Of a DNA stretch of 32,408 nt, positions 17,133 to 21,835 are shown one piece after another. Source of the DNA: Solobacterium sp. (GTDB taxonomy: Bacteria > Bacillota_I > Bacilli_A > Erysipelotrichales > Erysipelotrichaceae); the NCBI GenBank assembly GCA_017469355.1, contig JAFUGM010000024.1:1-32408 (forward strand), in the 5' to 3' direction. A model generated the notes under the pieces. That model did not search any database. It saw only the letters and a list, made by a program, of their open reading frames with translations, and was not told the DNA's origin. Both the position numbers and the translations under genes were made by a program. Within the stretch, counting starts at the first letter, position 1; the number at the start of each line of letters is the position of its first letter.

Positions 17133-17551
17133 TTGGAATTGTTGTATGTGGCCATGGCCAGTTTGGCAGTATGATGGCTGGCGTTGTACGGCTTGTGATT
17201 GGAATGCCGAAAAACTTTGCTTATGCGGATTATCGTCAGGAAGATACGGCCGATGACTTTGAAGCACATCTGAATGCTGCAGTTCAGGAACTGGAAGATG
17301 ATTCCGAAGGGATTCTCTTTTTTACAGATCTTTCTCAGGGCACCCCATTCCGCACGGCAGTGGCATTAGCCAACGCTCATGCAGAACGGCATATCATCGT
17401 TCTTTCCGGCACAACGGTAGGCGCCTTGACGGAAACCTCCATTGCCAGAGGCTATATTCATGATATTGAAGTTCTCGCTGATCTTGCGGTGGAACACGGA
17501 AAGAAGGAAGTTATGCGTACAGAAACGCATATCGAGGAGAATCAGGAATGA
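17129..17551 (+). CDS. PTS EIIA, mannose-family type
   Basis: A 140-residue soluble phosphocarrier domain. It begins MIGIVVCGHGQFGSMMAG, where the first histidine of the GHG motif is the expected phosphorylation site of the ManX/AgaF EIIA fold. The second landmark is ILFFTDLSQGTPFRTAVALA near residues 55-75. It would accept phosphate from HPr and pass it to an EIIB, but none is encoded here. The start overlaps the EIIC stop (ATGA) and its own stop overlaps the next gene the same way, so the three are tightly coupled. Pairing a mannose-superfamily EIIA with a glucose-superfamily EIIC is unusual. Confidence 0.9.
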   Translation: MIGIVVCGHGQFGSMMAGVVRLVIGMPKNFAYADYRQEDTADDFEAHLNAAVQELEDDSEGILFFTDLSQGTPFRTAVALANAHAERHIIVLSGTTVGALTETSIARGYIHDIEVLADLAVEHGKKEVMRTETHIEENQE

Positions 17552-17985
17552 AGAAGCTGTCGGTACCAGGGCTTGTCGGATTGATCTTTTCGTTTGTCGG
17601 GCTTCTCTTTTATATCCTTTGCATAACCGTACTTCGTCATACGGAGCCATTTCTTCATTACATGTTTCTGATTCTTGGGGCGTTATTTGCGTCCATTGGT
17701 TTAGCGATGGTATATGGTGAATGGAAACGTCTGCGTGGGGAACAGGTAGCACGCAGGGAAGGAACACCCTATGATGCAGTGGTGGTCTCGGTAGAGATTA
17801 ACTTCAATGTCACAATGAATGATAAGCATCCCTGGTTTATCACCTGCCAGTTACAGGAGCCATTTTCCGGGAGTTTGAACACCTACGTCAGTCATGATGT
17901 CTTTGATCGGCCGCAATTGGAGCCGGGGGATATCGTACGCGTATATATCAAGGAATCGACCGGGGAATATTACGTCGATGTTTGA
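17548..17985 (+). CDS. two-helix membrane protein with C-terminal beta domain (DUF3592-like)
   Basis: A 145-residue protein with two hydrophobic helices (about residues 7-29 and 37-56), a short basic stretch WKRLRGEQ and a C-terminal soluble domain rich in beta strands. The pattern of the latter (AVVVSVEIN... FITCQLQEP... LEPGDIVRVYI) recalls DUF3592-type domains. Which side of the membrane the soluble domain faces is not clear; the Lys/Arg after helix 2 suggests the cytoplasm. It is coupled by ATGA overlap to the PTS EIIA gene, so it may assist the transporter, but I cannot name a function. Confidence 0.75.
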   Translation: MKKLSVPGLVGLIFSFVGLLFYILCITVLRHTEPFLHYMFLILGALFASIGLAMVYGEWKRLRGEQVARREGTPYDAVVVSVEINFNVTMNDKHPWFITCQLQEPFSGSLNTYVSHDVFDRPQLEPGDIVRVYIKESTGEYYVDV

Positions 17986-18016: not shown

Positions 18017-18052
18017 AACTCCGGACAGCATTGGGAGAAAGGAGCCGTATTG

Positions 18053-19183
18053 ATGAAACGTACCGTGATGAAATTGTTATCTGTCATTCTGGCGGTCACG
18101 CTGCTTTCTGCCTGCGCACCAGAGCGCTCCGGCATTGCTTATACAGTTTATCCGGTAGGGTTTCTTGTTGAACGGATGACAGGCGGATCCATTCCTTCCG
18201 AATCCATTCAGGAAGATGTGATTGTTCAGCGGGCGACGATCCGTGAAGACTGGGAAGAGGTGCTTTCCTCTGCTGCAGTTTTCCTGCATATCGGCCAGCT
18301 GGAACCATATTATGCGATGTACAGCAGAGACTATGCCTCGCTCGTGCCGGATCTGATTGACCTGTCCGTCATGAATGCGGTCTATGATTTCCGCCGGTAT
18401 ACAGAAGTGAATTCCGATGGGGAGATTACCTTTATAGAAAGCCCATATTACCGTGGGGAAGAGTTCGATCTGATCGATACCGACAGCCGGGATCTCTACC
18501 TCTGGATGGATCCGATTGCGATGTTGTCGATGGCACGGGATGTAAGGGACTGGCTGATCTCTGCCTATCCCGATGAACAGGCGGCCTTTGAGTCGAACTT
18601 TGAACTGCTGGAAAATGATCTGATTAATCTCGATGCCCAATACCAGGCGCTTGCGACATCCAATGAAGTCAACGAGCGTCAGATCAAGTTTGTGACGATG
18701 ACCGCAAGCTTTGGGAACTGGCAGAAGACGTATGGCTTTCAAGTGTATCCAGTCATTCTGTCGAAATATGGGGCACTTCCCAATGAAGCGCAGTTGGAAC
18801 TGATTGAAAAACGAATCAAAGACGATGATGTTCAATACATTGTCTATGAATCCAATATGACCCAGGATATGATCAGCCTCTTCAATCGAATTGAAGATGA
18901 TCTGTCACTGACCCGGGTGGAACTCAGTAATCTTTCGAGCCTGACAGAGGCAGACAAAGAGGCGGGAAAGGATTATCTGTCCATCATGTATGAGAACCTT
19001 GCGGTACTTGAAACGATGGCGGCTGACCGCACCGAATTGCCAGAGATCAGTGAAGAGGATCCTGAAGGTGATGCGAATGTGATCAGTGAACTTCCTGAAC
19101 CGGAGGAAGTGGAACAGGCTCTGACCTGGGAAGAGGCGTACAGCACGCCATCCCCGGAAGAGGAGAACACAGATAAAGGATAA
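18053..19183 (+). CDS. ZnuA/TroA-like lipoprotein lacking canonical metal histidines
   Basis: A 376-residue lipoprotein: a signal peptide ends in lipobox LLSAC, with Cys21 as the lipid anchor, so it is tethered outside the membrane. The body matches the cluster-9 metal-binding fold: AVFLHIGQLEPYY, DLYLWMDP (147-154) where family members have a His two residues before the Trp, TASFG where they have HDAFG, and VYESN where they have the VEPQ-type acidic ligand. All three family histidine ligands appear replaced. A Glu/Pro-rich acidic tail fills about residues 325-376. No ZnuB or ZnuC gene is adjacent. Start ATG 18053 is chosen for AAAGGAG upstream, not TTG 18050. Ligand and role are unknown; a structural or non-metal role is possible. 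Confidence 0.8.
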   Translation: MKRTVMKLLSVILAVTLLSACAPERSGIAYTVYPVGFLVERMTGGSIPSESIQEDVIVQRATIREDWEEVLSSAAVFLHIGQLEPYYAMYSRDYASLVPDLIDLSVMNAVYDFRRYTEVNSDGEITFIESPYYRGEEFDLIDTDSRDLYLWMDPIAMLSMARDVRDWLISAYPDEQAAFESNFELLENDLINLDAQYQALATSNEVNERQIKFVTMTASFGNWQKTYGFQVYPVILSKYGALPNEAQLELIEKRIKDDDVQYIVYESNMTQDMISLFNRIEDDLSLTRVELSNLSSLTEADKEAGKDYLSIMYENLAVLETMAADRTELPEISEEDPEGDANVISELPEPEEVEQALTWEEAYSTPSPEEENTDKG

Positions 19184-19184
19184 T

Positions 19185-19206
19185 GCCCGTGAACAGCGGG
19201 CTTTTT
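19185..19206 (+). terminator. rho-independent terminator before polA
   Basis: Stem GCCCGT/GCGGGC with one G-T pair, a five-base loop, then TTTTT. Confidence 0.8.
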
Positions 19207-19225
19207 CCGCATGATGGAGAAGATT

Positions 19226-21835
19226 ATGAAAAAACTGTTACTCGTTGATGGAAACGCCATGTTGTTTCGGGCATATTATGCGACTGCCTATGGCACGAAG
19301 ATGACAAGCAGTCAGGGACTTCCGACTAATGCGGTATTCGGCTTTGCGAATATGCTGCAGAAAGCGATGGATCTGGTTCAGCCGGACAGTATTCTGGTTG
19401 CGTTTGACGCTGGGAAGCATACCTTCCGTCATGAACTCTATGCGGAGTATAAAGGTGGCCGGAAACCGGCACCGGATGATCTGGTGCCGCAGTTTCAGAT
19501 GGTGCGGGATTACCTGGATGCCTATCATATCCGTTGGGTAGAACGGAAGGATATTGAAGCGGATGATCTGATCGGTTCCTATTCCAAACAGTCGGAAGGC
19601 TGGCAGACCATCATTTTTTCCAGTGACCGGGATCTGCTTCAGCTGATCGATGAAGATACCACCGTGATGTTAATGAAAAAGGGAATCACGGAAATGGCGG
19701 AGATGAACGAAGAAGCGCTGAAGGAAGAGATGGGTATCCGTCCGTTACAGATCATTGATCTGAAGGGATTGATGGGAGACCATTCGGATAATATTCCCGG
19801 GATCCCCGGAATCGGGGAAAAGACCGCGTTAAAGTTGTTATATGAATATGACTCCGTGGAAAATGTACTGGCCCATGGGGAAGAACTGAAAGGTGCGCTG
19901 GGAAAGAAAGTGCGGGAAGGGAAAGAATCTGCACTCCTGTCCAAGACACTTGCGACGATTCGTACCGATGTTGAACTTGAGTTTGGGGCGGAGGAATGCG
20001 AATTTCATCCGGATTATTCCTCTCTGGTTAAATTCTTTGAAAGTCTTGATATGCGCATGTTGGCAGGAAGATATAAAGAGCTTGCGGCAGATTCCCAGAC
20101 GGAAGTGGAAGTTCAGGAGCCTGCACAGATCATGGAGCGGGTTACAGCTCTGCCTGAATCCATGAAAGGGCGCGATCTTTCGATTTACTTTGATGCGGAT
20201 AAGGAAGTCTTCTATCTTGCGGAATTACGAGGAGTCGTGGTTTACGATGGAACGCGCGCAGTATATCTGGAACTGAATGATGCTTTAAAGGATGAGGTGC
20301 TCAAAGCGGAGCTAAGTTCAAAGGAACATCTGAGAATCGGCTTTGACATTAAGAAAAACATGCATTTCTCTGCCCGTCATGAATTGCCGGTGAATTACAG
20401 CGATGATGTGATGATCATGGCGAATCTCTGTGATTCCACGCTTACCTCTTCGGAAAAGATTCTTGAAAAGTATGGGCTTTCCACATCTCGCAGCTATGAG
20501 GAGATTTATGGAACACCTGGCCGCCCAAGACTCGCTGATCCAAATGAATCGATGGTCTATGCCTGTGAGCGGGCGATTCAGATTCGTACATTATATGATC
20601 TTCTGATCAATGATCTTCAGGAAGAGCAGTTATCAAAGCTGTATCGGGAGATGGAACTTCCCTTAACTTCCATTCTCTTTGATATGGAAGAAACCGGTGT
20701 CATCTGTGACCGGACGGTGCTGGAATCCGTCGCATCCGATATGAAGAAACAGGTGGATGAACTGCAGGCGCAGATCTATGATCAGGCGGGCCATGAGTTC
20801 AACATCAACAGTCCCAAGCAGCTTGCGGTTGTGCTTTATGATGAACTTGGACTTCCCTCTGGAAAAAAGCGCAGCACGGGAGCGGATGTGCTGGAGAAAC
20901 TGAAAGAGGATCATCCGATCATTGGCTCTCTGCTTTCCTATCGTAAACTGCAGAAGATCTACAGCACCTATGCGGAAGGTCTGCAGAAATACATTCGTCC
21001 CGATGGCCGGATTCATACGTTATATAACCAGTGTGCTACTCAGACAGGACGGCTTTCTTCCAGCGATCCCAACCTTCAGAACATCAGTGTAAGAGATGAG
21101 CAGGGACGGATTATCCGCCGTGCCTTTCTCCCGGAACCTGGGCATGTATTGTTATCCAGCGATTATCATCAGATTGAACTCCGCATGCTTGCGAGTATGG
21201 CGGAGGAAGACTCCATGATTGATGCCTTCAACCACGACATCGATATTCACACCAAGACCGCAATGGATGTGTTTGGTGTGGAACAGGAGGATGTCACAAA
21301 GGAAATGCGCCGGCGGGCAAAGACCGTAAATTTCGGAATTGTTTATGGTATTTCGGATTTCGGTCTGGGCGAACAGCTCGGCATTTCCCGCAGGGAAGCG
21401 AATGAATTCATCGAGACCTATTACGCAAGGTTTCCGAAGATCCGTACCTATATGGATTCTCTGGTGCAGTTCTGTGAAGAACATGGCTATGTGCTGACTA
21501 TATGCGGACGCAGACGCTCCATTCCTGAAATCAAGGATAAGAACCGGATGGTTCGTGAATTCGGAAAGCGGGCTGCGATGAATGCGCCGATTCAGGGAAG
21601 CGCTGCGGATCTTATCAAGATCGCCATGATTCATATCGATCAGATGATGAAGGAAGCCGGTGTAAAGTCACAGATGATTCTTCAGGTGCACGATGAACTG
21701 ATCTTTGATGTGCCGCAAGAGGAAGTGGAACAGATGAAACAGCTGGTCATTGAAGGCATGGTTAAGGCGATGAGCCTGAAGGTGCCTTTAACGGTTGAGT
21801 GTTCCATCGGCAATGACTGGTATGAGGCGAAATAA
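19226..21835 (+). CDS. polA: DNA polymerase I
   Basis: PolA fills gaps and removes RNA primers in replication and repair. The 869 residues have three parts. The 5' nuclease domain has LLLVDGNAMLFRAYYA and the acidic sites KDIEADDLIG and FSSDRDLLQLID, with the HSDNIPGIPGIG helix-hairpin. The middle 3' exonuclease-like domain lacks the catalytic acidic motifs, as in many Bacillota. The polymerase domain has motif A DYHQIELRML, where family members usually have DYSQIELR, motif B RRAKTVNFGIVYG and motif C QVHDELIFDV. ATG 19226 has GGAG six bases upstream, whereas the ATGs at 19211 and 19214 have no site and crowd the terminator. The stop overlaps the mutM start. Confidence 0.98.
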   Translation: MKKLLLVDGNAMLFRAYYATAYGTKMTSSQGLPTNAVFGFANMLQKAMDLVQPDSILVAFDAGKHTFRHELYAEYKGGRKPAPDDLVPQFQMVRDYLDAYHIRWVERKDIEADDLIGSYSKQSEGWQTIIFSSDRDLLQLIDEDTTVMLMKKGITEMAEMNEEALKEEMGIRPLQIIDLKGLMGDHSDNIPGIPGIGEKTALKLLYEYDSVENVLAHGEELKGALGKKVREGKESALLSKTLATIRTDVELEFGAEECEFHPDYSSLVKFFESLDMRMLAGRYKELAADSQTEVEVQEPAQIMERVTALPESMKGRDLSIYFDADKEVFYLAELRGVVVYDGTRAVYLELNDALKDEVLKAELSSKEHLRIGFDIKKNMHFSARHELPVNYSDDVMIMANLCDSTLTSSEKILEKYGLSTSRSYEEIYGTPGRPRLADPNESMVYACERAIQIRTLYDLLINDLQEEQLSKLYREMELPLTSILFDMEETGVICDRTVLESVASDMKKQVDELQAQIYDQAGHEFNINSPKQLAVVLYDELGLPSGKKRSTGADVLEKLKEDHPIIGSLLSYRKLQKIYSTYAEGLQKYIRPDGRIHTLYNQCATQTGRLSSSDPNLQNISVRDEQGRIIRRAFLPEPGHVLLSSDYHQIELRMLASMAEEDSMIDAFNHDIDIHTKTAMDVFGVEQEDVTKEMRRRAKTVNFGIVYGISDFGLGEQLGISRREANEFIETYYARFPKIRTYMDSLVQFCEEHGYVLTICGRRRSIPEIKDKNRMVREFGKRAAMNAPIQGSAADLIKIAMIHIDQMMKEAGVKSQMILQVHDELIFDVPQEEVEQMKQLVIEGMVKAMSLKVPLTVECSIGNDWYEAK

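Follow-up and report, generated by a model that had tools for sequence, protein, structure and literature searches.

What does a protein with the fold of a zinc-binding receptor do once the residues that hold the metal are gone? The question is raised by a gene in the window analysed here, a stretch of 32,408 nucleotides from Solobacterium sp. (GenBank assembly GCA_017469355.1, contig JAFUGM010000024.1, positions 1 to 32,408 of the forward strand). An earlier note on this DNA had described the gene product as a ZnuA-like lipoprotein in which all histidine metal ligands are replaced. We consider, with a probability of roughly 0.6, that this His-less protein is a membrane-anchored, ABC-independent envelope lipoprotein, derived from a metal-binding SBP (binding protein) whose canonical zinc role has been lost.

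A lipoprotein with the ZnuA fold

The open reading frame is real (Table 1), with an alternative in-frame TTG start at 18050 ahead of the ATG, and its product carries the lipobox signal peptide of Gram-positive cluster A-I SBPs. The sole Pfam domain is ZnuA (PF01297), whose 89.3 bits lie above the cut-off of 29. The best NCBIfam match is to AdcA (NF033605), at 64.9 bits against a curated cut-off of 700, and spans only profile positions 1-325 of 517; with neither the score nor the second, C-terminal domain, the protein is not an AdcA equivalog. An AlphaFold (AF2) model computed with 45 orthologues as input has a mean pLDDT of 86.5 and superposes on the structures of AztC, TroA, Lmb, PsaA and AdcA with Z values of 24-27. 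Foldseek ranks AdcA at the top, and sequence comparison with solved structures places AdcA and B. subtilis YcdH nearest. Both the cluster A-I metal SBP fold and the PF01297 score place the protein in the ZnuA superfamily by descent, though the functional hallmarks of a metal SBP are missing. The fold and the lipoprotein character are as the earlier note had them. The acidic tail to which it also drew attention is present in the window protein but poorly conserved, many relatives terminating at about residue 325-330 in the alignment. It is not a feature shared across the family and is unfit as an argument for function.

Table 1. Positions of the features discussed, numbered along the window
Feature	Position	Strand	Remarks
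Predicted 145-aa membrane protein	17548..17985	+	upstream of the lipoprotein gene; no family above cut-off
His-less ZnuA-fold lipoprotein gene	18053..19183	+	376 aa plus stop; ATG at 18053
Lipoprotein signal peptide, lipobox LSAC (L-S-A-C21)	18053..18115	+	Cys21 unchanged across 45 relatives
Former ligand loop 1, V58-Q59-R60-A61	18224..18235	+	position of AdcA His63, register uncertain
Conserved beta-hairpin, about residues 112-143	18386..18481	+	specific to the family; F113, R115, Y133 and D142 invariant
Codon of Y149, former ligand 2	18497..18499	+	position of AdcA His140
Codon of T217, former ligand 3	18701..18703	+	position of AdcA His204; inside residues 215-244, where conservation in the family is highest
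Codon of S295, former ligand 4	18935..18937	+	position of AdcA Glu279; in NLSSLT
Acidic C-terminal tail	19028..19180	+	from about residue 326; low model confidence; missing in many relatives
Terminator-like hairpin with T run	19185..19201	+	between the lipoprotein gene and polA
polA	19211..21835	+	conserved downstream neighbour, followed by mutM, coaE, dnaB and dnaI

Loss of the metal ligands

Pneumococcal AdcA holds zinc through His63, His140, His204 and Glu279, and exchange of these three His for Ala in its N-terminal domain is reported to abolish zinc binding (PMC7858048). We located the corresponding residues by profile alignment to AdcA (chain numbering offset 26) and by multiple alignment. 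Of the expected three His and one Glu/Asp, the window protein keeps 0/4. The first position is placed at Q59 by profile alignment to AdcAII and at about A61 by multiple alignments, so that Q59, R60 or A61 are possible; the loop itself (IVQRATI) contains no His, and Q59 is nearly invariant across the His-less family. Residue 149 varies freely among relatives (Y, C, F, M, N and others) and is never His. We considered E266 as the fourth ligand and rejected it, since AdcA numbering puts Glu279 at S295 and E266 is a different conserved residue.

The replacements that the earlier note had read (Tyr149 at the HxW position, TASFG for HDAFG, and a first loop free of His) are all confirmed, and the loss of Glu279, which it did not mention, is added to them. 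It had also raised the question of whether relatives share these losses, and they do so throughout the orthologous family. None of the 45 aligned members has a His in loop 2 or loop 3. A few His occur in loops 1 and 4 of some relatives, and the zinc site is restored in 0/45. From these alignments we infer that the His-less protein does not bind metal at the canonical site.

Conserved segments of the family

Ordinary ZnuA members carry a variable acidic/His-rich loop ahead of site 2. The His-less family has the conserved hairpin there, with strands at residues 115-121 and 124-130 (DSSP on the AlphaFold model), and the window protein is without the flexible His-rich loop that precedes ligand 2 in SBPs of zinc importers. 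Across the 45 aligned sequences 38 columns are invariant. Conservation is strong in loops 3 and 4 and in residues 215-244; Q59, R115, W151, W223 and Q224 are near-invariant together with aromatic residues, and the acidic residues D142, D147, D153 and E266 are conserved. We read this pattern as a surface or cleft that may have been remade for a non-metal purpose. Taken jointly, however, the four ligand loops do not exceed random stretches significantly in conservation (p 0.14), and residue 149 is variable, so that the case for a remade small-molecule pocket is weak.

Distribution and selection

One genome-contig scan and two genome searches yielded about 70 orthologues. They come from Solobacterium-type MAGs and from Holdemania, Anaerorhabdus, Lactimicrobium and Erysipelothrix. 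The His-less lipoprotein is present in 32 of the 36 sampled genomes of Erysipelotrichaceae (gut bacteria), always at more than 330 bits. The next-best scores elsewhere in the sampled class are at most 134 bits, and those of the proteins behind them that were read carry His at the metal sites. Two family-level genomes (G286 and G394) were set aside because they match none of PF01297, PF01594 and polA despite high stated completeness; their sequences may be atypical or illegible to the search. The His-less proteins form a one-sided, monophyletic clade with a branch support of 100/100 and a long stem, as would fit a single origin. Pairwise dN/dS values of 0.015-0.14 in 16 pairs reflect strong purifying selection, and the lipoprotein is therefore maintained, not decaying.

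Other ligand arrangements occur among the ZnuA-family proteins compared. L170 and L172, the nearest relatives in the tree (with weak support), keep three His with Ala at the Glu site and contain a 'STWxxYGLIQIPI' stretch reminiscent of the His-less family. The ZnuA-family lipoproteins L165-L169 and L176, from another family of the class, have His at sites 1 and 2 and MLF at the third, with an additional conserved 'H(S/T)(T/S)' and 'LHGLG(N/Q)' where the Glu loop was; theirs is a different rearranged metal site.

Relation to ZnuBC-type importers

An ABC-3 (ZnuB-type) permease is absent from 21 of the 49 genomes that carry the His-less gene, several of them 98-100% complete, and 3 more give weak matches only. 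These genomes encode no PF01297 protein besides the His-less one; ordinary ZnuA copies go together with a clear permease, in the 25 genomes that have one and in no others. Because 21/49 genomes have neither the permease nor another ZnuA, the His-less protein cannot, over the family as a whole, rely on a ZnuBC-type importer, and it is not the binding protein of such an importer. In the neighbourhoods no cognate ABC-3 permease or ATPase was found either. The neighbouring genes tested around the window lipoprotein likewise include no permease or ATPase of the ZnuBC kind, in agreement with the earlier note, whose picture of a ZnuA fold with replaced ligands now extends to a family-wide loss under purifying selection, uncoupled from the ABC permease.

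The genome of the window is one of the 25, and its contig 90 clusters a Fur-like regulator, a ZnuA, an ATPase and a permease. This ZnuA (L001) carries DR where the third ligand would be and Q in place of the fourth, as in relatives that have the 'DRFPF' motif. The ligand set is thus not constant in importer-borne proteins either, a point that counts against our preferred reading.

Genomic neighbourhood

The lipoprotein gene usually lies just upstream of polA-mutM-coaE-dnaB-dnaI, a nearly constant order that is broken in a few loci by insertions of transposon or transporter genes. In L044, L084, L088 and L101 insertions of 4-5 kb separate it from polA; they contain ABC importer-like gene sets (L084, L101) and an IS110 transposase (L088). 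The gap to polA is short in most loci. A terminator-like hairpin is present in 13 of 65 loci, and since the window gene and those of some relatives are followed by one, co-transcription with polA is not assured. These hairpins and the four insertions leave a functional tie to PolA weak.

Upstream, among the 58 loci with enough flank, 47 have radC and 27 a membrane protein of the AI-2E family; the AI-2E-family gene is the immediate neighbour in about 23 loci, among them those of Erysipelothrix and of the nearest relatives of the window. We rejected the AI-2E protein as an obligate partner, the adjacent paralogue being absent from the window genome and others. The early branches have mreC/mreD upstream; in G313, a genome of the family that has no lipoprotein gene, mreC- and mreD-like reading frames (read as such, not from a family scan) are followed directly by polA. 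A relative of the predicted 145-aa membrane protein upstream of the window gene is found near the His-less lipoprotein gene in L036.

Proposed role and alternatives

We propose that the family arose once, early in the Erysipelotrichaceae, from a cluster A-I metal-binding SBP akin to AdcA/ZnuA. Its two-lobed fold would have been retained while other residues took the place of the four metal ligands and the conserved beta-hairpin that of the His/acidic-rich loop; zinc recruitment through the canonical site would have been lost, as would service to an ABC-3 importer. The regions most likely to engage a partner protein, or a small ligand other than a metal, would be the hairpin (residues 112-143), residues 150-164 where the helix that links the lobes begins, and a conserved stretch of the C-lobe (about 214-244). 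We infer a role outside ABC transport; that the protein docks or senses, and what it would contact or bind, is speculative. A more specific version, in which a zinc-binding SBP turned once, through loss of the metal site and gain of the hairpin, into a near-universal, ABC-independent envelope lipoprotein of the Erysipelotrichaceae that now docks or senses in a housekeeping process, draws on the neighbourhood (radC, polA and, in early branches, mreC/mreD), and we advance it tentatively, at slightly less than even odds.

The protein could alternatively be an SBP for a non-metal solute that delivers to a transporter encoded elsewhere. The SBP fold and lipoprotein anchor are suited to this, the near-invariant Q59, R115, W151, W223 and Q224 could line a pocket with the aromatics, and the AI-2E-family gene directly upstream in about 23 loci also speaks for it. 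We nevertheless consider this unlikely, as there are no conserved ABC genes beside the His-less gene, the AI-2E paralogue is missing from the upstream position in the window and many relatives (the single AI-2E gene of the window genome sits on another contig), and the cognate ABC-3 permeases are absent in 21 of 49 genomes. Metal might still be bound through other residues, either Asp/Glu or a His among the few present, in a surface metal buffer or sensor. No His is invariant or nearly so, no Cys is conserved besides the lipidated Cys21, position 149 varies freely, the His/acidic-rich loop is gone and no metal-transport genes accompany the gene, all of which makes this option distinctly improbable even though the ancestral fold binds metal and importer-borne relatives tolerate ligand changes. 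The conserved D142, D147, D153 and E266 could in principle form a hard-ligand metal site, and to this extent they count against our preferred reading.

The window genome has a zinc importer locus (ZnuA, ATPase and permease) on another contig, and the protein might be an accessory or decoy subunit of this ZnuBC importer. Such a role is already contradicted at the family level by the 21 gene-bearing genomes, several of them 98-100% complete, with neither an ABC-3 permease nor another ZnuA, and has very little probability. Lost ligands and the lack of partner genes nearby are also what a zinc-binding protein in decay would display, but the dN/dS values, the 38 invariant columns in 45 sequences and the near-universal retention in the family contradict decay, which we discount almost entirely.

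In the open-access literature searched we found no papers on His-less ZnuA-family proteins. Automatic annotation would, because of the clear PF01297 match, label such proteins as zinc ABC-transporter binding proteins, a label that is very probably wrong for the His-less proteins of the whole Erysipelotrichaceae family, including those in genomes without an importer of the ZnuBC class. The family is a clean, apparently single-origin example of a binding-protein fold departing from transport.

Comparison with known systems

Among solved structures the top sequence match is the N-terminal ZnuA-like domain of Streptococcus pneumoniae AdcA (PDB 7jj8, 7jj9; profile 7e-22), which is also the best Foldseek match; both proteins are lipoproteins with a two-lobed fold. 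Unlike AdcA, the window protein has none of the four zinc ligands, no second (C-terminal) domain and no His-rich loop, and it is not accompanied by AdcCB partner genes. With the cluster A-I SBPs ZnuA, AdcAII, Lmb, TroA and AztC it shares the fold (Z 24-27), a PF01297 score above the cut-off and export, whereas its family lacks their metal ligands, has a hairpin of its own and, in 21 of the 49 genomes with the His-less gene, is without a cognate ABC-3 permease. The ZnuA encoded on contig 90 of the window genome itself belongs to the same superfamily and is also a lipoprotein, but it keeps His at sites 1 and 2, lies in an importer cluster and has an acidic variable loop where the window protein has the hairpin. 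Such ordinary ZnuA copies, present in some of the same genomes, can serve as a comparison for what the cleft of the His-less protein now holds.
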